From Saprospiraceae bacterium (GTDB lineage Bacteria; Bacteroidota; Bacteroidia; Chitinophagales; Saprospiraceae), in the NCBI GenBank assembly GCA_024762995.1, contig JANTGI010000020.1:1-34311 (forward strand): a DNA stretch of 34,311 bases, in the 5' to 3' direction. Below, one piece after another: positions 4,587-15,933 of this stretch; the first letter of the stretch is position 1; each line of letters starts with the position of its first letter. The position numbers and the translations under genes are program-made. The notes below the pieces were generated by a model, which saw only the letters and a program-made list of their open reading frames with translations, searched no databases and was not told the DNA's origin.

Positions 4587-4635
4587 GAATATTGATGGGA
4601 AGTCTTTTCCTTTGCTCAGACAAACAAAACATCCT

Positions 4636-6705
4636 ATGAGCACTTTACGTCATCTTTACGCCCTTACCCTAATTATTTTTCTTTCCACCCATTCTTTTGC
4701 GCAAACGCCGGATGCTTGTTCTATACCGATGCCCGGATATACGAAGCTGGGAGAATTTGAAGGTCATGGTTATTATCTTTCTGACACCTTGATGAATTGG
4801 GTGGATGCAGATGCCTATACCAAAGCCAACGGTCAGTTTTTGATTTCTATTAACTCTCAAGCCGAAAATGACTTTATTCATGGACTAGTATCGGAGATGG
4901 TGCTGATTGGCTTGAATGATTTAGAGGAGGAAGGTCAACCTGTTTGGACCAATGGAGATTCGCTGGTTTACACTAATTACAGTGATTGCTCTTGGTGTTC
5001 GACCAATGACGAAAACCACAATTTTGGGGTGATGGTACCTTGGGACGGTACGTGGATTTTGGATCACTACTTTCGCTCTGCAAAGCACATCATAGAACTA
5101 CCTTGCGGAAACTTGACCAGTGAGATTGAGATGGCCTGTCCGAATGATATATGGGTAGAAATTCCGCAAGGACAATTGAGTGTACCTGTGACATGGGATT
5201 TGCCGGTAGTGAGCACGGACTGCCTAGTGAATGATACGGTTATTATTTCCCAAACCATGGGTGCAGAATCCGGGTCTGATTTTATCGAAGGAGTATATAC
5301 AATTGGATATCAAGCCGTGGATAGTTGCAGTAGCCTTGCGGAATGTACATTTACGGTGACCACAACGATGCCGCAAGATACCGGGTGTGGAGATTTGGAA
5401 GGATTTACAAAGTTGGGTGAATTTGAAGGTCACGGCTACTATATGTCTAACGAAGCTTCGACTTGGCAAGATGCCAAAGATTTTGCGGAAGCAGCGGGTG
5501 GGTATCTGGCCACAATGAATACCAAAAACGAAAATGATTTTGTTCAATTACACTTAGGCTTGGAAATGGTCTTTATCGGTTATAATGATGCCACCATTGA
5601 AGGACAAGGTGCTTGGGCAAATGGGGAGCCCGTCTCTTTGGATTTGAGCTATAGTAACGATAGCCTTTCAGATTATGCGGTGATGAATTTTTGGAATGGC
5701 CGGTGGGTCATGGTTAATCAATGGGTTTACAAAAAATATATCTTGGAAATGGATTGTGGGGGCGCATCTCCGACCAGTATCACCATGGATTGCCCGCAGA
5801 ATATGGAAGTAACCCTGCCCGAAGACAGCGCGTTTGTACAGGTCAATTGGGATTTGCCGACCGTTTCCACCACTTGCACAAACGATACGGTCCTGCTTAC
5901 GCAAACATTAGGACAGACATCCGGTGCTTATTTTGAACAAGGCAATCATACAATTGCTTATGCAGCGACGGATAGTTGCGGAAATATTGAGACTTGCTCG
6001 TTTGAAATTACCGTAAGTTCGGCAGGAGCATGTGGCCCAATAGTTGGATACACCTTATTGGGTGAATACAACGGACACGCTTATTACTTGTCAGACGAAG
6101 CCTTACACTGGGTGGATGCCCAATTTGCAGCGGCTTCCGACGGTGGCTATTTGGCGACCATAAATAGTCAGGCAGAAAATGACTTTCTGAAAGGCGTGAT
6201 TGGTCATTCCTTGCCTTTTATTGGTTATAGCGACGCGGATACTGAAGGCACAGGAACTTGGGCCAACGGCGACAGTATGACCTTGGATTTGAGCTTTAAT
6301 AATACGGACGAAAATGATTTTGCGGTCATTAATTTTTGGGCAGGTACCTGGCAAATGGTCAATCAATGGGTCACAAAAAAATATGTCATGGAAATAGAAT
6401 GCGGAGCTGCACAAGGAGGCGTCGCTCCGGCTCCGATATTGACCACTTCATCATGGAAGCCAACTATGCATGACATTTATCCCAATCCGGCAGATGATTA
6501 TATCACTGTTCGATTGACCAATCCACAAGAAAAAAATATCCAATTCAAGATTTATGATGCCCGTGGGCAGGTCTTCCTTTCGGAAAAAAGAACCTTACCA
6601 AGAGGAGCATCAGAGCTGGAATTTGAGATTACGAAACTCCCTGCGGGTATGTATTTCTTGCAATTGGGTCAAGGCGAATACCGTCGATTTGTGAAGATGG
6701 ATTAA
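4636..6705 (+). CDS. T9SS-secreted protein with three C-type lectin-like and two HYR domains
   Basis: Predicted cell-surface or secreted adhesin of 689 residues. Order: signal peptide (1-22, ending THSFA), lectin-like 1 (about 28-157), HYR 1 (166-245), lectin-like 2 (251-375), HYR 2 (385-461), lectin-like 3 (465-590), and a Por-type C-terminal sorting domain (about 615-689, starting IYPNPADDY and ending RRFVKMD). Each lectin-like unit carries GHxYYxS, W-x-D-A, NSQAENDF or similar, IGxND or IGYxD, W-x-NG and a late W-x-G-x-W, followed by a Cys. A longer frame begins at TTG 4612, but ATG 4636 gives a clean signal peptide and a suitable distance from the promoter. The sorting domain implies passage through T9SS and surface attachment or release. 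Ligand unknown; HYR modules are usual in adhesion proteins. Confidence 0.92.
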   Translation: MSTLRHLYALTLIIFLSTHSFAQTPDACSIPMPGYTKLGEFEGHGYYLSDTLMNWVDADAYTKANGQFLISINSQAENDFIHGLVSEMVLIGLNDLEEEGQPVWTNGDSLVYTNYSDCSWCSTNDENHNFGVMVPWDGTWILDHYFRSAKHIIELPCGNLTSEIEMACPNDIWVEIPQGQLSVPVTWDLPVVSTDCLVNDTVIISQTMGAESGSDFIEGVYTIGYQAVDSCSSLAECTFTVTTTMPQDTGCGDLEGFTKLGEFEGHGYYMSNEASTWQDAKDFAEAAGGYLATMNTKNENDFVQLHLGLEMVFIGYNDATIEGQGAWANGEPVSLDLSYSNDSLSDYAVMNFWNGRWVMVNQWVYKKYILEMDCGGASPTSITMDCPQNMEVTLPEDSAFVQVNWDLPTVSTTCTNDTVLLTQTLGQTSGAYFEQGNHTIAYAATDSCGNIETCSFEITVSSAGACGPIVGYTLLGEYNGHAYYLSDEALHWVDAQFAAASDGGYLATINSQAENDFLKGVIGHSLPFIGYSDADTEGTGTWANGDSMTLDLSFNNTDENDFAVINFWAGTWQMVNQWVTKKYVMEIECGAAQGGVAPAPILTTSSWKPTMHDIYPNPADDYITVRLTNPQEKNIQFKIYDARGQVFLSEKRTLPRGASELEFEITKLPAGMYFLQLGQGEYRRFVKMD

Positions 6706-7017: not shown

Positions 7018-7106
7018 GGAGGTTTCTAAAAGTTTACCCAACCTTTTTTTCAGCAAACGCTGTCATGGAGTTTGAATGCTTTTATTCCGACAAAAAAATA
7101 AAAAAG

Positions 7107-8369
7107 ATGAAATCTTTTAAATTACTCCTACTTTTCTTTCTGGGAACTGTATTGATGACCACGATGTCCTGCACCAAAGATAGTTGCACGACGACAGTTA
7201 CTTACAAAAAATATTCCCCCATTTATAAGACTTTGGACGAGATGAACCAACCTGTTCAGATTCTGGAATCCAAAGAAATCAAGGAAACGGGAAAAATATT
7301 CGCATCGGGTAATTACCTGTTAATCAATGAATTGTACAAAGGAATCCATATTATAGACAATTCGACACCGACGAGTCCAAAGCAAGTAGCTTATATTGAA
7401 ATAGCAGGCAATATCGACATGGCGGTAAAAGGCAATACCCTATTTGCGGACAGCTACTTTGATTTATTGGCTTTTGACTTTTCGGATCCTTCTCATCCGG
7501 TTTTGCTCAATCGCGTCAAGCATTTATATCCTGATACCAAATATCGCTATTCAAGAGCTCAAAACGCTTATATAGTAGGACAAAAGGAAGAGTTGGTGAC
7601 CGAAGATGTCCCATGCACGGGAGCTTCTAATTTTTTGAGAATGCAAGAAGATGCGGTTTTCGCTAATAGTTTGGGAGGTAGTTTTTTGCCAAATTCCGGT
7701 TCGACAGGCCCTATCAATCTCTCCGGCTCGATGGCCAGCATGATTATAATGGGCGATTATCTATACATTATCAATGGCTCTGACTTAGCCATTTACTCTC
7801 CGGAAAACACACCGATACTCCAAAATACGGTTACAATTGGTTCTGGTATTGAGACTTTGTTTCCGTACGGGGACAAACTGTTTATCGGCTCCCGGACAGG
7901 AATGTTTATTTATGATAATTCAGACCCCTTACATCCGGTTCAACTCTCTAGGTTTATGCACTTTACTTCGTGTGACCCGGTATTTGTAAAGGATGATATT
8001 GCTTATGTAACACTTCGGGATGGTACACCTTGTCAAGGCGCTACAAATCAACTGGATGTTATTGATGTGAGTAATTTGATGCAACCGAGCCTGATAAAAA
8101 CATATCCCATGTTTAATCCGCACGGATTGTCCGTAGATGAGGACAGATTGTACCTTTGCGATGGAAATGAAGGGCTTAAAGTGTTTGGAATCAATGACTT
8201 AAATAAGATAACCGATCACTCCAAATATACTTTCCCCGGCATGGAAGCCTATGACGTACTACGAATGCCTAACAAAGAGCTACTCATCGTCATAGCCAAA
8301 GATGGTCTGTATCAATTTGACTTGAATAATGGCATCCGATTTATCAGCAAAATTGGTGCAAACAAATAA
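7107..8369 (+). CDS. LVIVD-repeat lipoprotein
   Basis: The 420-residue product starts with a lipoprotein signal (MKSFKLLLLFFLGTVLMTTMSC, lipidation Cys at residue 22) followed by CTKDSC. The rest consists of LVIVD-type repeats that should form a beta-propeller: GIHIIDNSTPTSPKQVAYI, LAFDFSDPSHPVLL, GMFIYDNSDPLHPVQL, LDVIDVSNLMQPSLI and a late LKVFGINDLNKI. LVIVD proteins are surface or periplasmic and mostly without known function. A longer frame starts at ATG 7065, but only ATG 7107 puts the signal at the N-terminus. The Lys-Asp pair just after the lipidated Cys recalls the K-D/E surface-export signal of Bacteroidota lipoproteins, so surface exposure is possible but unproven. Confidence 0.85.
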   Translation: MKSFKLLLLFFLGTVLMTTMSCTKDSCTTTVTYKKYSPIYKTLDEMNQPVQILESKEIKETGKIFASGNYLLINELYKGIHIIDNSTPTSPKQVAYIEIAGNIDMAVKGNTLFADSYFDLLAFDFSDPSHPVLLNRVKHLYPDTKYRYSRAQNAYIVGQKEELVTEDVPCTGASNFLRMQEDAVFANSLGGSFLPNSGSTGPINLSGSMASMIIMGDYLYIINGSDLAIYSPENTPILQNTVTIGSGIETLFPYGDKLFIGSRTGMFIYDNSDPLHPVQLSRFMHFTSCDPVFVKDDIAYVTLRDGTPCQGATNQLDVIDVSNLMQPSLIKTYPMFNPHGLSVDEDRLYLCDGNEGLKVFGINDLNKITDHSKYTFPGMEAYDVLRMPNKELLIVIAKDGLYQFDLNNGIRFISKIGANK

Positions 8370-8459: not shown

Positions 8460-9224
8460 ATGATGACATTAATAAAAAGTATTGGAATGATTTTCTTCCT
8501 TTGTCCGGTCTTGCTTTTTGCGCAAGCTGACCTTACGGAAAATAAGGACTATGTGCACACCCAAAAAGGGAGCGTGTTTAAAGGGCAAATAGTGGAATAT
8601 AAGCAAGGCGATTATATCCGAATCCGGATGCATAGCGGAGACACCGTCCAATTGCAAGAAAATAAAATCAAGAAGATTGTCCAGAAGGGAAAGAGCCTTT
8701 ATCTCTTTAAGGAGCGGGGATATTTTTATCATCTCCAAGGAGGTATTCAAGGAGGGCTTGGATTGTATGAGGACTTTGTGTTGGGCTTAAGTTTCGAGCA
8801 TACTTTTGGATATCAGTATAATCGTTGGTTGGGCGGTGGATTGAGCATCGGAGCAGAAAGATATTTTGATGGTCGGCAATTGATATTTATCCCTGTAAGT
8901 TTGAATATTCGCGGATACTTTTTGCCCCAAAACCGGACACCGTATTATTCATTGAATGTCGGTTATGGCTTTGCGGGGTTATTGGACAAACAGCAGTATA
9001 AAGAAGCCAGTGGCGGTTTGATGCTGAACCCATCGGTGGGCATTCGATTTGGTTCTCAAAAAGGAGCTTTTACACTGGATTTCGGGTTAAAAATGCAAAA
9101 TGCCGTGTTGACAAGAAATCCTATCGAGCCAAGTAGTTGGGGTTGGTGGGGGCCAAGATGGCTCAAAAAAGTGGAGAAAATCCGTTATATTCGAACCGGC
9201 ATCCGATTTGGGTGGCTGTTTTAA
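8460..9224 (+). CDS. Outer-membrane beta-barrel protein of unknown function
   Basis: The 254-residue product has a signal peptide (about 1-21, ending LLFA). A short domain follows (about 28-80), with KGSVFKGQIVEYKQGDYIRI and KIKKIVQKGK, a small beta module common in Bacteroidota exported proteins. From about residue 90 there are amphipathic beta strands rich in Gly and aromatic residues up to the last residues RTGIRFGWLF, which end in Phe as barrel proteins often do. Function unknown. It lies 27 bp before the proposed sigma-factor start on the same strand, with no terminator between, so the three genes 8460-10998 probably form one transcript and the barrel may be part of the same envelope-sensing unit. 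Confidence 0.75.
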   Translation: MMTLIKSIGMIFFLCPVLLFAQADLTENKDYVHTQKGSVFKGQIVEYKQGDYIRIRMHSGDTVQLQENKIKKIVQKGKSLYLFKERGYFYHLQGGIQGGLGLYEDFVLGLSFEHTFGYQYNRWLGGGLSIGAERYFDGRQLIFIPVSLNIRGYFLPQNRTPYYSLNVGYGFAGLLDKQQYKEASGGLMLNPSVGIRFGSQKGAFTLDFGLKMQNAVLTRNPIEPSSWGWWGPRWLKKVEKIRYIRTGIRFGWLF

Positions 9225-9251
9225 GGAGGGATTTTATAAAAACACCGCACA

Positions 9252-9806
9252 ATTACAAAGAAAAGATATACCGAAAAAGAGATTATCGAAGGTTGTTTGC
9301 GCAATGAACGTCTCTTTCAAGAATTGCTTTATAAGCGATACGCCCCTCCTTTGTTGCGACTGTGCTTGCGTAAAATGAAAGACAGAGATACGGCGATGAT
9401 CGTAGTGAATAACGGTTTTTTGAAAGTCTTTCAAAAACTGGATTCTTATGCTTTTACCGGCTCTTTTGAAGGTTGGATTCATCGTATTGTGTATCGGAGT
9501 ATTGCCGATTATTATCGCTCTGAATCAAGCCAAAAAAGAAGCCACACCCTCTATGTAGAGTTTGAACGAAGAGCGGGAGAACATTTATTAGATGAGTTAT
9601 ATTTTGAAGATTTATTAGGGTTAGCCAAAAAATTGCCCCCGGCGACTTACAAGGTATTTTTATTGTATTTAGTCGAGGGCTTCAAACATCAAGAAATTGC
9701 CGAACAACTAGGGATTTCTATCGGTACATCTAAATGGCATTTGGCGGAAGCCAAAAAAATGCTAAAACAAATCATTCACGCTAATACCGGGGATTATGCA
9801 CGATAA
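9252..9806 (+). CDS. ECF RNA polymerase sigma factor
   Basis: Extracytoplasmic-function sigma factor that redirects RNA polymerase to a small regulon. Region 2 is visible as VVNNGFLKVFQKLDSYAF and GSFEGWIHRIVYRSIADYYR. Region 4 is LPPATYKVFLLYLVEGFKHQ followed by EIAEQLGISIGTSKWHLAEAK. The only conventional start is TTG 9297, but the frame is open upstream and encodes TEKEIIEGCLRNE, the usual N-terminal helix of these proteins. No ATG, GTG or TTG precedes that segment; the plausible start is ATT 9252, giving MTKKRYTEKEIIEGCL and 184 residues. An AAGGAGGG run at 9223-9230 is 21 nt away, too far for normal spacing. Family certain, start uncertain. It overlaps the next gene by 11 bp. Confidence 0.88.
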   Translation: MTKKRYTEKEIIEGCLRNERLFQELLYKRYAPPLLRLCLRKMKDRDTAMIVVNNGFLKVFQKLDSYAFTGSFEGWIHRIVYRSIADYYRSESSQKRSHTLYVEFERRAGEHLLDELYFEDLLGLAKKLPPATYKVFLLYLVEGFKHQEIAEQLGISIGTSKWHLAEAKKMLKQIIHANTGDYAR

Positions 9807-10998
9807 TATGGACAATATGGAACAATTCTTTGACGATAGCTGGGAGCACATGCACGAGTTATTAGAAGAGCACCTTCCGGAAAAGGAGAAAAAGAAAAAG
9901 AGATTTTTGTTTTGGTGGTTGGGGGCGGCGGCCTTCATTATTGGGCTTGGAATTTATTTTTGGGAAGATGCCCGTTATACGCGCTTGGATCGTCCCACCG
10001 AAGTCGCCGGTAAAAACAGACCCAAAGTATCCATCCCGACCTACACACAAAAGGAAGAACGCACGCCCAAAAAGCATCCGACTACTACCCTACCCTCCAC
10101 AGGTAAAAGTCAGACCGCACCGAAGAAAATAAAACATTCTAATCAAACCATCGCCCAAAAAACCAAACATTTGCTTCCGGTGCTTTCGCAAAAAAAAGAA
10201 CCCACTATTGTTTTAGGTAAAAGCCTTACAGAGAAAAATCTTCAAAATAAACCATTGATTACCAGCCATATAGACCAAACACCCACACATCAAGCACAAA
10301 GAAAACAGGTATCTATTTTGGCTCCGATTGAAGGCTTAATGCCGACGCCGCTTGTTTTTGCGCAAGCTGAAGTCGTCCCCTTACTGACAGAAAAAAAACC
10401 TAAAAAATGGTATAGGGATTGCTACGCAGGCATCTCAGCTTCTGATATCGGAAATCTAGCGATGTTTGGAGGAATAGATGTGGGACGGTCTATCTCTTCC
10501 CGATTTGATTTAGATATTGGTTTAGGCTATCGGCGGGTACAGCTTCCTGCCGGTCATGTGGATTCCACCGGACAGTATTTTTCTACGATTTCATTCAAAG
10601 AAAATTCATGGAATACACCATCGTCCGGCTCGTTAAGTTCTACATTAGATAGAAGAAGCAGGATATCCATACATCGCGACTTAATAGAGCTTCCGCTAAA
10701 ATTGCATTATCGAATTAGTCCTAGATGGTCAGTTCATACCGGAGTGACCGGTATCTATCAATTTGCAGCGGTGCAGAAAAAAAGGGACATGGTATATTCT
10801 AACCAATCTACCAGTGCCCCCATCCAAGTCCCCAATCAAATCACCCCGATTAATAACTTGACCAATCAATTTTATACTAGTTTTGATGTGGGAATTTCTT
10901 ACAAGTGCAAGCCTTTCAACATCACTGCCGGATACAATAATTGGAATTGGTTTAAGTCCGATAATCAGCTGTATCTGAGCTTAAAATATCGATTTTAG
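9796..10998 (+). CDS. Anti-sigma-like membrane protein with C-terminal beta-barrel-like domain
   Basis: 400 residues in three parts. A short acidic N-terminus (1-35) contains DDSWEHMHELLEEHLPEKEK, like cytoplasmic anti-sigma segments of Bacteroidota. One transmembrane helix follows (about 37-56, FLFWWLGAAAFIIGLGIYFW). A Pro/Thr/Lys-rich linker (60-195) leads to a C-terminal domain (about 200-400) of beta strands ending LYLSLKYRF, resembling an outer-membrane barrel. It overlaps the sigma gene by 11 bp (ATG 9808, just after the sigma stop, is an alternative start), so the pair is translationally linked. The likely role is to hold the sigma factor at the inner membrane and release it on an envelope signal. 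A helix and a barrel in one chain would link both membranes; this is inference. No canonical zinc anti-sigma motif is present. Confidence 0.75.
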   Translation: MHDNMDNMEQFFDDSWEHMHELLEEHLPEKEKKKKRFLFWWLGAAAFIIGLGIYFWEDARYTRLDRPTEVAGKNRPKVSIPTYTQKEERTPKKHPTTTLPSTGKSQTAPKKIKHSNQTIAQKTKHLLPVLSQKKEPTIVLGKSLTEKNLQNKPLITSHIDQTPTHQAQRKQVSILAPIEGLMPTPLVFAQAEVVPLLTEKKPKKWYRDCYAGISASDIGNLAMFGGIDVGRSISSRFDLDIGLGYRRVQLPAGHVDSTGQYFSTISFKENSWNTPSSGSLSSTLDRRSRISIHRDLIELPLKLHYRISPRWSVHTGVTGIYQFAAVQKKRDMVYSNQSTSAPIQVPNQITPINNLTNQFYTSFDVGISYKCKPFNITAGYNNWNWFKSDNQLYLSLKYRF

Positions 10999-11014
10999 GT
11001 AAAAAACAGTGGCC

Positions 11015-11128
11015 ACACCGTTAAACCGTTAAACCGTTACGCCGCTACACCGTTAAACCGCCACACCGCTACACCGTTAAACCGTTACGCCGCTACACCG
11101 TTAAACCGCTACACCGTTCCACACCGTT
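11015..11128. repeat. 8-bp tandem repeat ACACCGTT (14 units)
   Basis: Thirteen contiguous 8-bp units fill 11015-11118, then CC, then one more unit at 11121-11128. The consensus is A-M-R-CCG-Y-Y: mainly ACACCGTT and AAACCGTT, with ACGCCGCT, ACACCGCT and AAACCGCC variants. The array runs up to the stop codon of the convergent 1601-residue protein gene. Shorter runs occur at 19136 and 29054. Confidence 0.9.
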
Positions 11129-14100
11129 CAAAACCCTTCTTTAATCAATGTACGAGCCAGCCCATTGGCAAAAATCATATAGGCACCATTAGGCATTTCC
11201 GCAAGGGAAATTCTAACGAGGCGATCATGTTCCGCATCCAATTCTTGCGCAAATACCATCTGGCCCAGATTATTCAAAATACGCAAGTGTACGGGTTGCT
11301 CCAAAGGTAATTCTACCATGACATAATCACTCGCCGGATTAGGGAAAATGCGAAAATCATCCGTTAGGTTTTGGTTTTCGGTGAACTGAACACCCGATGC
11401 CTGATTGAGCACAATCAATGCTTCATCATCTTCATTAGGTATTTGTGTTTGATTATTACCGGGAGAAGAATCCATATCGAGTTCATCGCATTCTGCCACT
11501 TGCGCAAACATAGGAATTGCCGTCGCCACTTTGGTAAAACCTGTGTATTCTAGGGTTAAGGATTCGTTGGGGGCGATAGAAGGAATGATCCAAGTGCCGG
11601 TCCAATCATGATACTCCGTCCCTAACGGTTCGATATAACTGGTAAAACCTAATATCGACCAGTTGGCATTATCGGACTGATTAAAGTAATCGACCACCAC
11701 GTTATTAGCCGTGGCGGACCCACTATTTTCAATGGTCAAATAGGTCGTCACAAAAGACCATTGCCCCGGATTCATGTTAGAAGCAGAAATGGACAAGCTC
11801 AAATCCACATCACCGGTTTGCCCACCACTGGAACAGGTGTTGGGGACTTGAAAACCGGAGACTGCTTGGCAATTGGTGATGTTTTGGTCAGTGACAGTGA
11901 GCGTAATAGATTGGTTCGGTGCAAACTGGCTGATATTAAACGGGCCAAAAGAAGCCCCGCTACCGGTACCACTGTGGGTAAGTCCATTGAAGGCAATCTC
12001 CCAGTCATTACTCCCTGAAATGGGGACATAAAAATTAAACAAATCATCGCTGGCATCATCCGGAGTATCGTTGTCAAAACATTGAATATTAGTGACTTGT
12101 GCTTGAATGGTACAATTATCGGGCGGGGTGCTTCCACAGTCAAATTCAAGGACATACTTACGTTCTGCCCAAGTATTGTCTAACGACCACGTCCCATCCC
12201 AAGGGAACATGGTATAATAGTCATTCTCATCTGAATTTTCGGCACACCAAGAGCAATCACTGTAATTGGTGTAAGTAGGCGCAGTATTGTTAACCCATTG
12301 GAAAATCCCTTCAGCGGCATGATCAGACAATCCGATAAAGGCAATTTCGGATAAGTGATCTTGGATAAAATCATTTTCATTTTGGTCTTCGATGATGGCG
12401 AGATGACCACCCAGATTCATCGCCATAGAAGACGCATCAGACCAAGATGCCTCTTGCTGACTGACAAAATAATGGTGATTATTATAGCTGCCTAAATAAT
12501 CAAATCCGGCCAGCGCCGTCGGGCAATCATCAGTCGGTGTCGTCGTCGTGTCGATGGTGGTAAATTGAGAGACCGCGCAGCCATCATTCTCACCATTCTC
12601 ATTATAAGGAGTCACTTTTACATAGAAGGTCGAATGATGCGGAAACGGAAATAACTGAAAACCGGTCACATCTCCTACATCAAAATTATCCAAAATATCA
12701 TGTCCGTCCGGTGTCGAACTAACGGTCAATTTATACCCATCGGCATCAGTAGCCGTCGTCCAAGCCAAAGGCGTATTTAGCGGCACATCTACGGCATTGT
12801 CCATTGGAGTCAACATTTGGCTACATCCGGGCAGGTTGCTGACGGGAATTCCCTGAATATTGACGGAATAGTCTTCAATCTCTCCAAAATCTATGTCTTC
12901 GCAAGGATCGGCAAACCCGTTTCTACTCATAATAATCCGCATGAGCGTAGGTCCTGTTTGGGCCGTTGCCGGAATGGTAATGCTGCCAAAAGTAGGATTT
13001 TCATAGGTGCCGTTAGGTGGCGCGGGCACCATTTTTTCAAAGGCGATTTCAGAAGTCTCAAAAATTTCATTTTGATTATAGTCAATCCATACTCTCCAGT
13101 ATTCGTCATGCGTATAATAACCAAATCCGGACGTTAAACTTATCCAATAGGTTTGATTTTGCTCGACATCCGCAGAATGGAAGGAAAAATCCGAATAAGG
13201 CTTTCGGTAGGAAGTATTGTCAATAGTCCCAAATTTGACGTGATTTATCCACTCTCCCCAAGGGTTTTGGCTGGCCGGAATGCAATAATTCTTTGTATCC
13301 ACTCCCTGAAAATTGGAGCAGTGGGGCGGCGGAATAATATAAGTACTGACTTGGCATCCGGGCTCATTGGCATCATAAAAGTAAGCCGTAAATTCATTGT
13401 CATGAATCACATAAGGGCCAAAATCAATCGGCTCGTTATAAGGCCCGGTGATGGTTTGGCCGTTGATATTGGCTACCCAATTGCCACTCGAATTTAGCCC
13501 GTTGACAGTCATCGAAATGGAAAATTCATCATCCCAACCATAGATAGGTGTGCCCATATCGTCACAATAGGATTCGTGTTGGTTGACATACAAGATACAA
13601 TCATCTTGCCCCCCTTCTCCGACAATCGTCACCGAATAATCTTCCACTTCTCCATTATCAAGCGACGTACAGGGCCCCACAGGATAATCATCCAAACTAA
13701 ACATGATACGCATGCGCGTTTTTCCCGAAAGGGCGGTAGTCGGGATATGAAATGAAGTATAAAGACTGCCTTGTTGCGAATTGGTTTTTCCTTGGAAGGC
13801 AATTTCATTTTCGGCATAGCTCCCGTCTTGATTATAGTCAATCCATGCCCTAAAAAAACCATTTTTATTGACACTTTGCTGGGCAGTCAATTTGACGGAA
13901 GTCTCCTCCGCTCGGTCAATCGTAAAATTAAAATCCGTAAAATCGTTATAGACTTTTTTACCGGAGTACTTGGTTAGATATTTGAGCCGAACCGAGGTAA
14001 TCCAAGCATAAGTTACATTACCTTTGGGCTGGCAATATTTGTACACCATATTTAGCGGAAGCGTCGGCACATTATCCTGTTGTGCATTATCTTTTGCGCT

Positions 14101-15933
14101 GCCTTGCGGCAAATTAATCGTTATGGGCCCGCTATGAATAGGTGTGACTTTGACGCTGTAAGTAGTGCCGTTGCCGGAAAAATCAGATAGGTGACCATTC
14201 GTTACCACAAAGTCATCAATCGTCATCCCGGTTACGTCTTCGTTAAAAGTAGCCGTGACTATAAATGGCTCTGTTACAATGAGTTGCGGAGTTGACAAGG
14301 TCGCTTCGGGCGGCAAATCCACCTTCGCAATTTCTGTAAAGAAAGAAGGACTACCCGTCAAAGGAATGTCCGTGGCATCAACCGTAAAAGACTGCTGAGT
14401 ATCCGAATAATCCCAATTGTAACGAGTCAAACTACCCATCTTCAAACCTGCCGGAAAAGAATAGGTCTTGGAGGCTACTTCAGAGTTATCTATTAAAGTT
14501 TTGGCCCACAGAGCATAGACATAGGTGCCATTTAGTTTTTTGAAAGCATAGCCTTTGACGCCTTGCGGCAAATTTAATGCGGCGGTTCGATTAGGATCAT
14601 AAGTGGTTTCAGTAATAAAATCTGCCGTGGTTTTATAGCCAATAGCAGACGGATGACGTACTTGGCTTTGGGGGCTTTCATTGGTGAATTTTTTGTAAAA
14701 ACCCATACACTGAAACTCATTGACAATATCACTTTCATATTCTAGATCATCGATGGAGTAAACATGCATTTGGAGTACATCATTGACCTTATTGGTCATC
14801 GCCGCTTTCATCAAAAAATTGGTCTGTCCTTCTACGGAAGCCAAGGATTCGTTGGTAAATTTTATTCGGGGAACATTGGTTTCAGTAATGGTACGCAATT
14901 TTTTGGGATAGATTTCGCCATTATAGCCGTAGGTACTCAGCACATCTTCATAGATAGCAAATCGATTATTGATGACTTGTTTAGCGGCTTCATCGGAATT
15001 ACGCATATAGGCCCAATCTTGGATATTATCGTCCCAATGCCTAAGACTTCCATCAATACTCGGATAGGAATGAATGCCTAAAACATCAAAATAAGCCCCG
15101 CCCTTGTGGGGATATTGTTCGGTGACAGAACCGTCGATGGGATTATCCGTATTGCGCAATAATACATCCAAAAAAGACGGAAAACCTAATCCGGCCACCA
15201 CCACATAATCGTCCGGCGAAACATATTTGATGACTTCATAAGCAATACGAAGCGTGCGCAAATAATGAAAAACAGGAGCTCTCAATTTGTAGTCGCAAGG
15301 ATCCGGATTATTTTCCCAATAATTGCCCGGATAGCCCGGTGGGCGCCAACCTTTATCCGTATAAGTATAGCCGGGTTCGTTCCATATCTCCCAAAATTTG
15401 ACATAATTGTCATATTTGGTGACTAGGCCGTACATATAAGCCGCAAAATAATTATTATCATTGATGGGAGTGCCGTTTTCGCCATTATCCCAGATGGGCT
15501 CATATAGATTTTTGAACATGGTGCTTTGATGACCGGGACAATATTCGGTGGTATCACGCAAGGCATCCGACGGTTCGCCCACAAATGCCGTCAAATCGTT
15601 CATCCCGAGATTAAAATAATACTCAAAAGGCTCTAATTCAATCTCATCCCCAAATTGTTCTAAGACATAAGACGCGAGCGACGGACGAAGTGAACGAGCC
15701 CCCACACCGGGAATGCCTTTGGCAGGGTTACCCGCCAATAAATCCGCAGCCGTCTGATTGCTCCAACCTAGGGGCAAAAAACCCATATTGCTACCGGGCC
15801 GAAAGTGTCCGGAATAAGCGGGGATACCATCATTAGCGGTGAAGTTCACTTGCGTAAAACCGCTAAAAGACCAAGAAAAAACGCACAGAAATAGCGCTAC
15901 TCTAAGGAACTTAGGATAATAAAAGTGTTGCAT
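11128..15933 (-). CDS. Giant T9SS-secreted glycoside hydrolase with GEVED and lectin-like modules
   Basis: 1601 residues. Order: signal peptide (1-28); a glycoside hydrolase-like TIM barrel (about 30-500); an Ig-like domain (540-624); GEVED 1 (633-768, NGEVEDYSV); Ig-like repeat A (775-875); GEVED 2 (881-1030, FGEIEDYSV); an FN3-like domain (1034-1129); a C-type lectin-like domain (1136-1264); Ig-like repeat B (1268-1370), similar to repeat A; a CARDB-like domain (1376-1487); and a T9SS sorting domain (1525-1601, starting DFRIFPNPASDYV). In the catalytic part, WEIWNEP supplies a clan GH-A-type acid/base Glu186, and TITETN supplies a probable nucleophile Glu351. The 165-residue gap fits a (beta/alpha)8 barrel. 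The GH family is not identifiable by eye; GH39 or GH5-like are candidates. Predicted to degrade polysaccharide outside the cell. Monocistronic. Confidence 0.92.
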   Translation of the reverse strand: MQHFYYPKFLRVALFLCVFSWSFSGFTQVNFTANDGIPAYSGHFRPGSNMGFLPLGWSNQTAADLLAGNPAKGIPGVGARSLRPSLASYVLEQFGDEIELEPFEYYFNLGMNDLTAFVGEPSDALRDTTEYCPGHQSTMFKNLYEPIWDNGENGTPINDNNYFAAYMYGLVTKYDNYVKFWEIWNEPGYTYTDKGWRPPGYPGNYWENNPDPCDYKLRAPVFHYLRTLRIAYEVIKYVSPDDYVVVAGLGFPSFLDVLLRNTDNPIDGSVTEQYPHKGGAYFDVLGIHSYPSIDGSLRHWDDNIQDWAYMRNSDEAAKQVINNRFAIYEDVLSTYGYNGEIYPKKLRTITETNVPRIKFTNESLASVEGQTNFLMKAAMTNKVNDVLQMHVYSIDDLEYESDIVNEFQCMGFYKKFTNESPQSQVRHPSAIGYKTTADFITETTYDPNRTAALNLPQGVKGYAFKKLNGTYVYALWAKTLIDNSEVASKTYSFPAGLKMGSLTRYNWDYSDTQQSFTVDATDIPLTGSPSFFTEIAKVDLPPEATLSTPQLIVTEPFIVTATFNEDVTGMTIDDFVVTNGHLSDFSGNGTTYSVKVTPIHSGPITINLPQGSAKDNAQQDNVPTLPLNMVYKYCQPKGNVTYAWITSVRLKYLTKYSGKKVYNDFTDFNFTIDRAEETSVKLTAQQSVNKNGFFRAWIDYNQDGSYAENEIAFQGKTNSQQGSLYTSFHIPTTALSGKTRMRIMFSLDDYPVGPCTSLDNGEVEDYSVTIVGEGGQDDCILYVNQHESYCDDMGTPIYGWDDEFSISMTVNGLNSSGNWVANINGQTITGPYNEPIDFGPYVIHDNEFTAYFYDANEPGCQVSTYIIPPPHCSNFQGVDTKNYCIPASQNPWGEWINHVKFGTIDNTSYRKPYSDFSFHSADVEQNQTYWISLTSGFGYYTHDEYWRVWIDYNQNEIFETSEIAFEKMVPAPPNGTYENPTFGSITIPATAQTGPTLMRIIMSRNGFADPCEDIDFGEIEDYSVNIQGIPVSNLPGCSQMLTPMDNAVDVPLNTPLAWTTATDADGYKLTVSSTPDGHDILDNFDVGDVTGFQLFPFPHHSTFYVKVTPYNENGENDGCAVSQFTTIDTTTTPTDDCPTALAGFDYLGSYNNHHYFVSQQEASWSDASSMAMNLGGHLAIIEDQNENDFIQDHLSEIAFIGLSDHAAEGIFQWVNNTAPTYTNYSDCSWCAENSDENDYYTMFPWDGTWSLDNTWAERKYVLEFDCGSTPPDNCTIQAQVTNIQCFDNDTPDDASDDLFNFYVPISGSNDWEIAFNGLTHSGTGSGASFGPFNISQFAPNQSITLTVTDQNITNCQAVSGFQVPNTCSSGGQTGDVDLSLSISASNMNPGQWSFVTTYLTIENSGSATANNVVVDYFNQSDNANWSILGFTSYIEPLGTEYHDWTGTWIIPSIAPNESLTLEYTGFTKVATAIPMFAQVAECDELDMDSSPGNNQTQIPNEDDEALIVLNQASGVQFTENQNLTDDFRIFPNPASDYVMVELPLEQPVHLRILNNLGQMVFAQELDAEHDRLVRISLAEMPNGAYMIFANGLARTLIKEGF

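Follow-up and report, generated by a model that had tools for sequence, protein, structure and literature searches.

The window analysed here is the whole of a 34,311-nucleotide stretch of Saprospiraceae DNA, contig C20 of a 3.68-Mb genome. Its forward strand carries an operon of four genes, which encode an LVIVD-repeat lipoprotein, a barrel outer-membrane protein (OMP), an extracytoplasmic function (ECF) sigma factor and a single-chain, putative anti-sigma protein of the type known as Dma. The original prediction for this DNA described a three-gene cassette, and its three open reading frames (ORFs) lie at the place and on the strand it gave (8460-9224, sigma ending at 9806, and 9796-10998). 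The extent of the operon had to be revised, however: it starts further 5', with a promoter and the LVIVD gene (7036-8369), and this fourth gene, the promoter and the regulon had been overlooked. The Dma gene overlaps the sigma gene by 10 bases. The features are as follows.

7036-7064, forward strand: predicted ECF promoter ACCCAACC-TTTTTTTCAGCAAACGCT-GTC at the operon head, with -35 element CAACC, a spacer of 18 and -10 element GTC
7107-8369, forward strand: LVIVD-repeat beta-propeller lipoprotein (PF08309), with a signal peptide ending MTTMSC
8460-9224, forward strand: OMP of 254 amino acids (aa), from its predicted structure; conserved 5' of sigma and 3' of LVIVD elsewhere
9252-9806, forward strand: ECF sigma factor, from Pfam domains and the starts of its relatives
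9796-9903, forward strand: predicted cytoplasmic anti-sigma segment, residues 1-36, with KKKKR before the helix, from conserved columns
9904-9960, forward strand: predicted single inner-membrane helix, residues 37-55, from a hydropathy of 1.96 and positive residues on its N side
9961-10410, forward strand: predicted disordered T/K/P-rich periplasmic linker, residues 56-205 (150 aa), from composition and comparison of 71 proteins
10411-10998, forward strand: predicted C-terminal 8-stranded outer-membrane barrel, residues 206-400, ending LYLSLKYRF, from AlphaFold2, fold match and Pfam matches in relatives

The sigma factor and a predicted two-membrane anti-sigma protein

Regions 2 and 4 are both present in the sigma factor (Pfam Sigma70_r2, E 3.8e-10; Sigma70_r4_2, E 2.6e-12), which shares 40-78% identity with 20 relatives. 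As to its ECF class, the best NCBIfam match, TIGR02985, stayed under its cut-off (75.7 vs 126.4 bits). The frame has no ATG, GTG or TTG ahead of TTG 9297, and conserved sequence begins 15 codons earlier (window 9240-9299). ATT 9252 lines up with the starts of relatives and lies 27 bp after the OMP gene, the same spacing as the GTG of the closest relative (L138). Judged from this alignment, translation probably starts at ATT 9252 instead of TTG 9297, and such a rare start may keep the sigma level low.

The 400-aa protein encoded behind sigma opens with an acidic stretch that ends in KEKKKKR ahead of a hydrophobic segment. Residues 37-55 are the sole segment above the usual hydropathy threshold of 1.6 (Kyte-Doolittle 1.96), the runner-up reaching 1.23 at residue 172, and residues 59-195 are rich in threonine (18), lysine (17) and proline (15). 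Hydropathy and composition thus recover the acidic segment, single transmembrane helix and Pro/Thr/Lys-rich linker of the original prediction. Across 71 complete proteins, including that of the window, the linker has a median length of 168 residues (minimum 125, maximum 520; 150 in the window); this set comprises complete ORFs of at least 350 aa with a transmembrane score above 1.2 and a barrel that starts at least 50 residues past the helix. In 27 proteins from loci below L057 the mean is 166 (standard deviation 19). Among 24 aligned sequences including the window, no column other than W16, M19 and L23 is invariant, and all three lie in the N-terminal segment; in a wider set of 33 sequences M1 is the sole invariant residue, with W16 kept in at least 90%.

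The original prediction had proposed structure prediction as a check on the barrel-like C-terminal domain. For residues 198-400, AlphaFold2 with 31 relatives returned eight strands (mean predicted local distance difference test score, pLDDT, 78.7; predicted template modelling score, pTM, 0.73), with some loops at low confidence. The best fold match is OmpA (1bxw; Z 16.5, root-mean-square deviation 3.2, 153 aligned; VIA-align 2), and OprF, NspA and a designed transmembrane barrel come within about 1 of it. Of the 24 aligned members, 19 have a Pfam OMP_b-brl_2 match (E<=0.01); the window protein is not one of these. We thus predict an OmpA-like 8-stranded outer-membrane barrel from the model; a soluble beta fold is unlikely because of the outer-membrane barrel fold matches and the presence of PF13568 in relatives. 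Hydropathy, AlphaFold2 and fold match together lend predictive support to the earlier idea that inner-membrane sigma control and an outer-membrane barrel are combined in a single chain. In one relative (L010, G069:C86), a single in-frame TAA breaks the anti-sigma frame where it encodes the barrel; either the gene is broken or the sequence is in error.

We followed the pair through 80 named loci obtained with a sigma alignment of 21 rows, the best 80 of at least 582 relatives, and through 60 further family loci fetched by place. The named relatives belong to Saprospiraceae or other Bacteroidota, except one titled just "bacterium". An ORF of at least 150 aa stands at the end of sigma (gap -120 to 200) in 78 of the 80; an N-terminal transmembrane helix was found in 73, two helices in none, a barrel profile (E<=0.01) in 46 and helix plus barrel in 43. 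In the family loci, sigma was present in 58 of 60 and a downstream ORF in 57 of these 58, with a helix in 54 and a barrel profile in 50 of the 57. The 10-base overlap seen in the window recurs in 44 of 135 pairs. Matches to the anti-sigma protein occur at E<=0.001 in 76 of 199 family genomes, own genome included, the 199 being drawn from a larger group. Judged by gene order and profile matches, pairs of sigma and a putative single-chain anti-sigma are general among relatives.

These counts bear on another way to read the hydrophobic segment, as a cleaved signal peptide on an ordinary OMP with a long leader and no sigma control. Cleavage would account for the barrel reaching the outer membrane, but 36 mostly acidic residues with conserved positions lie ahead of the segment and exceed the usual n-region, and the gene's place behind sigma in 78 of the 80 named relatives and its frequent 10-base overlap also speak against an ordinary OMP. 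We consider a cleaved leader very improbable and retain the predicted membrane-anchored anti-sigma.

The LVIVD-OMP module

The first gene of the operon came to light through two OMP-proximal candidate motifs, TATCAGTTTGA and CTTACGAT, which were rejected when they proved to be the 3' end of an LVIVD gene. Its product matches PF08309 with 47.4 bits (E 1.2e-12), above the cut-off of 20.2. The listed ATG at 7065 abuts the promoter GTC, and the product from ATG 7107 has a signal peptide and a lipobox; because ATG 7065 touches the GTC, the gene most likely starts at 7107. A lipobox is found by rule in 15 of 32 LVIVD proteins, 13 of the 15 with D at +4, which we take to be perhaps a surface-export signal.

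For the OMP, AlphaFold2 with a 10-row alignment (pLDDT 82.7, pTM 0.64) models a signal-peptide-like helix, a small beta domain (residues 30-74, SH3-like on visual inspection only) and an 8-stranded barrel (87-253). Fold matches at Z 15-18 to a Legionella porin, OmpA, NspA and OmpW concern the barrel only (query residues 82-254). No Pfam match to a TonB-dependent receptor was found in the OMP or nine relatives.

The OMP profile gave 44 matches at E<=1e-5 (42 distinct sequences, window not counted) in loci L039-L196. Forty lie within 600 bp upstream of sigma, and the other four (L143, L147, L150, L180) are also upstream on the same strand. The check on co-occurrence in related genomes suggested with the original prediction is therefore borne out in these loci; they were fetched around sigma or anti-sigma genes, however, and the linkage there is uninformative for other places. 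The closer sigma genes (E<1e-60) have the OMP upstream in 43 of 72 cases, and LVIVD as well in 31 of 72, vs 1 of 76 for the remoter ones; this single case, L137, is a close relative whose sigma ORF is shortened. The OMP is absent from the stretch read for 29 of the 72, six of these stretches being short. An LVIVD homologue lies directly upstream of the OMP in 32 of the 44 OMP-sigma loci, with gaps of -14 to 421 bp; two of 34 LVIVD matches are placed otherwise (a second copy in L157, and L093). A quick sigma tree of 72 rows takes 13 changes to account for the presence of the OMP, vs 22.9 with shuffled labels, so that the linkage is clustered on the tree but often lost or gained.

The position of the OMP next to sigma and anti-sigma invites comparison with FecI-FecR-FecA, a three-protein cell-surface signalling system with a TonB-dependent receptor, in which an ECF sigma factor is controlled from the outer membrane. 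The window is alike in such predicted control and differs in that one chain replaces the three proteins and the cassette lacks a TonB-dependent receptor. In a relay of the Fec type, the upstream OMP would be the receptor and a separate anti-sigma would carry a periplasmic C-terminal domain. Adjacency of the genes fits this arrangement, but the 254-aa OMP is predicted to form an 8-stranded barrel and is no TonB-dependent receptor, the C-terminus of the anti-sigma is itself a predicted outer-membrane barrel, and FecR gave no Pfam match in the window protein (E up to 1) or in the 24 members scanned (E up to 0.01). The 29 closer sigma genes without an OMP in the stretch read also count against a dedicated receptor, and we find a Fec-type relay hardly credible.

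We rejected the notion that the OMP family is confined to the neighbourhood of this sigma, as the sigma- or anti-sigma-centred loci had suggested (44 of 44), since an OMP alignment searched against 100 whole genomes returned 86 matches at E<=1e-10 in 68 genomes, at least 42 of them upstream of a listed sigma and 44 away from any listed sigma. All 16 of these 44 that were examined directly follow an LVIVD gene, with no sigma in the stretch (L299-L314). This pairing away from sigma indicates that LVIVD and OMP form a module of their own, joined to sigma-Dma in about half of its occurrences.

LVIVD and OMP could be sensory partners as well: they would assemble with the Dma barrel at the surface of the outer membrane, and this complex would gate the release of sigma. 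The order LVIVD-OMP-sigma-Dma is kept in 32 loci, the two stay together even away from sigma and so probably work as a pair, and the D at +4 in most LVIVD lipoboxes would suit a surface position. The module is often found without sigma, however, and many closer sigma genes lack the module in the stretch read; the partnership is therefore not obligatory, and we hold it to be possible but unlikely. The original prediction had called the OMP a partner or a target. Its target half fared better: the gene lies in the same operon behind the promoter, and some of the LVIVD-OMP units elsewhere have the same promoter. We see LVIVD and OMP as at least predicted targets and perhaps partners.

The promoter motif and the predicted regulon

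The motif CAACC-N17/18-GTC stands ahead of 28 of 39 distinct operon heads including the window (27 of 38 without it). The spacer is 17 in 6 heads and 18 in 22, and any other length from 12 to 23 occurs in 1; on the reverse strand the motif was found at none of the 39 heads, and with spacer 17 or 18 it precedes just 2 of 144 control ORFs from these loci. It precedes LVIVD in 21 of 31 heads and OMP in 7 of 8. Among culturable relatives, Neolewinella aurantiaca (L083) carries the full set of four genes without the strict motif ahead of the first, and Saprospira grandis DSM 2844 (L078) has sigma and anti-sigma only. In loci from which both LVIVD and OMP are absent, the motif lies within 400 bp before sigma in 18 of 29 closer and 3 of 75 remoter cases. 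Because it precedes sigma itself where these two genes are missing, autoregulation by sigma is likely on this sequence comparison.

In the own genome, the pattern ACCCAACCNNTTN14GTC has two perfect matches, the window site and C36:16794. The latter sits 26 bp before a gene for a 103-aa lipoprotein (weak DUF6970 match, E 0.007, below cut-off). In G067, which belongs to another genus, a homologue of this gene follows a site at a distance of 27 bp. A further site, C9:22839, lies inside a receptor-like ORF and was taken as chance. Across 100 family genomes, ACCCAACCNTTN15GTCT gave 90 sites in 40 genomes vs 3 for the reversed pattern. Sites occur in 34 of 50 genomes with a close sigma vs 6 of 50 others (Fisher p 1.2e-8, uncorrected for kinship).

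We read 86 stretches; since L230 and L256 hold the same site, they cover 85 of the 90 sites, two of which fall inside a long ORF. A gene follows within 150 bp in 72 stretches and none in 14. By a crude rule, 40 of the 72 encode lipoproteins, 23 other signal-like proteins and 9 others, and 979 control genes in the loci divide into 95, 346 and 538 by the same rule. Recurring targets are LVIVD (15), sigma (8), lipoproteins of 63-75 aa (5) and 163-179 aa (4), and OMP (2). In the closed, one-contig genome G062, LVIVD-OMP lies at 3.26 Mb and OMP-sigma at 6.29 Mb, with the motif before both; LVIVD-OMP units on contigs other than that of the closest sigma also retain it in G014, G015 and G029. Further targets include a di-haem cytochrome c peroxidase, a serpin, a barrel OMP and a PPDK_N protein in G062, and a META-domain lipoprotein in G058. 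The predicted targets are mostly exported lipoproteins, OMPs, LVIVD or sigma.

The lipoprotein-like genes of 63-75 aa are one family, directly behind the motif in five genomes (L216, L226, L234, L261, L275). The G062 serpin gene encodes a secreted lipoprotein (L290, G062:C1:4691079; PF00079, E 2e-120) and lies 23 bp behind a perfect motif.

A sigma paralogue or a different regulator could instead be what reads the motif. The own genome holds 19 Sigma70_r2 matches in all and a second close sigma gene, C152, which would provide candidates. The motif precedes sigma's own operon head in most relatives examined, however, and shifts with gene order, and sites are rare in genomes without a close sigma. 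We regard recognition by another regulator as decidedly unlikely, and assign the promoters provisionally to the sigma of this operon. At least three further sigma/Dma-like pairs with barrel-profile matches occur in the own genome: L039 (G000:C123), L047 (G000:C14) and L056 (G000:C152). No OMP was found upstream in any of the three, and only C152 has CAACC-N17-GTC within 2,500 bp upstream (C152:2379).

Around the cassette, large secreted proteins with C-type lectin domains and type IX secretion system (T9SS) sorting tails lie at window positions 4612-6705 and 11128-15933. Degenerate short repeats of the ACACCGTTAAACCG type fill positions 11000-11125, which separate the Dma gene from the T9SS-type gene that converges on it.

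Proposed mechanism and known systems

We think it probable that the locus encodes an envelope-sensing, dual-membrane-spanning (Dma-type) anti-sigma switch with a definable regulon. Residues 1-36 would hold the ECF sigma at the inner membrane, and the chain is predicted to cross that membrane once, traverse the periplasm as a disordered tether and end in an OmpA-like outer-membrane barrel. Sigma would be freed, by proteolysis or pulling, when something changes at the outer membrane, damage to the envelope or a ligand at the surface being most likely. Freed sigma would transcribe from CAACC-N17/18-GTC promoters, as their linkage to it suggests. The promoter at 7036-7064 would drive sigma's own four-gene operon in a positive feedback limited by the co-produced anti-sigma, and the promoters elsewhere are predicted by cross-genome comparison to drive further exported lipoproteins and OMPs. 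A more speculative version, which strikes us as quite doubtful, treats the chain as a physical envelope gauge: the tether, at least 125 residues long in the 71 proteins, would link the sigma trap to the barrel, LVIVD-OMP would dock on the barrel, and loss of order or a ligand would pull or expose the chain, free sigma and lead to rebuilding of the lipoprotein layer.

Several observations weigh against the proposed switch and its regulon. The motif was chosen after inspecting these sequences and was found in and tested on one family only, and 11 of the 39 heads lack it in strict form. The own genome by itself shows no enrichment (2 matches vs 3 in the control; 6 vs 4 with up to one mismatch); a spacer-17 pattern that misses the window site gives 6 vs 2 there, and the strict GTCT pattern has zero sites. 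Within the window, four matches occur at one mismatch vs 1.2 expected, and 5 of 100 shuffles had as many. Among 12 LVIVD-OMP units away from sigma and not picked for the motif, only 4 have it upstream, and the strict site is missing from 16 of the 50 genomes that carry a close sigma. The two close sigma genes of the own genome, C20 and C152, have similar sites, and either could read either. The linkage of the OMP family to sigma is not exclusive, as the genome scan described above shows. Finally, when five Bacteroidales-type relatives were compared with the window group by profile, the barrel aligned (probability 98.1, E 1.1e-13) and the anti-sigma segment did not.

The architecture as such is already published. 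It was described in 2022 for Phocaeicola vulgatus (pair M0N98_03761/03760, with EcfO of B. fragilis cited alongside), where sigma rose 33-fold on toxin exposure (PMC9308784). In B. thetaiotaomicron the class was named Dma, with the pairs Dma1-Das1 and Dma2-Das2; loss of Dma1 or Dma2 increases vesiculation via the cognate sigma, and das2 is up 4.5 log2 in a dma2 deletion (PMC13088901). Dma switches of gut Bacteroides control vesicle production, and the signal sensed is given as unknown in the same source. The original prediction presented its one-chain switch as unlike FecIRA. The single chain stands as predicted, and so does the main idea in outline; its novelty does not, and we rejected a novel architecture as such on the strength of both papers (PMC9308784, PMC13088901). 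A literature search on an LVIVD-sigma link, an EcfO promoter and Saprospira ECF/anti-sigma pairs found nothing on point, subscription papers being mostly outside its scope.

By description rather than sequence, the window resembles Dma1-Das1 and Dma2-Das2 in placing an ECF sigma beside a single-chain anti-sigma that reaches from the outer membrane to the cytosol; in those systems the sigma gene rises on loss of the anti-sigma and envelope genes are affected (PMC13088901). It differs in that the named neighbours of dma2 are BT_1555-1557 and not LVIVD plus a barrel OMP, and the available part of the source gives no promoter motif for Dma1 or Dma2 (PMC13088901). For M0N98_03761/03760 of P. vulgatus, the likeness, again by description, extends to a likely envelope-stress trigger with NigD genes up; the P. 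vulgatus and B. fragilis systems differ in belonging to gut Bacteroidales, with no LVIVD-OMP module mentioned in the part available (PMC9308784). To these systems the present comparison adds a four-gene operon whose promoter can be recognised in the DNA, LVIVD-OMP as a linked module, and, for each genome, a small number of candidate targets. With a likely autoregulated operon in another branch of the phylum, sensing and control by a two-membrane anti-sigma become directly testable.

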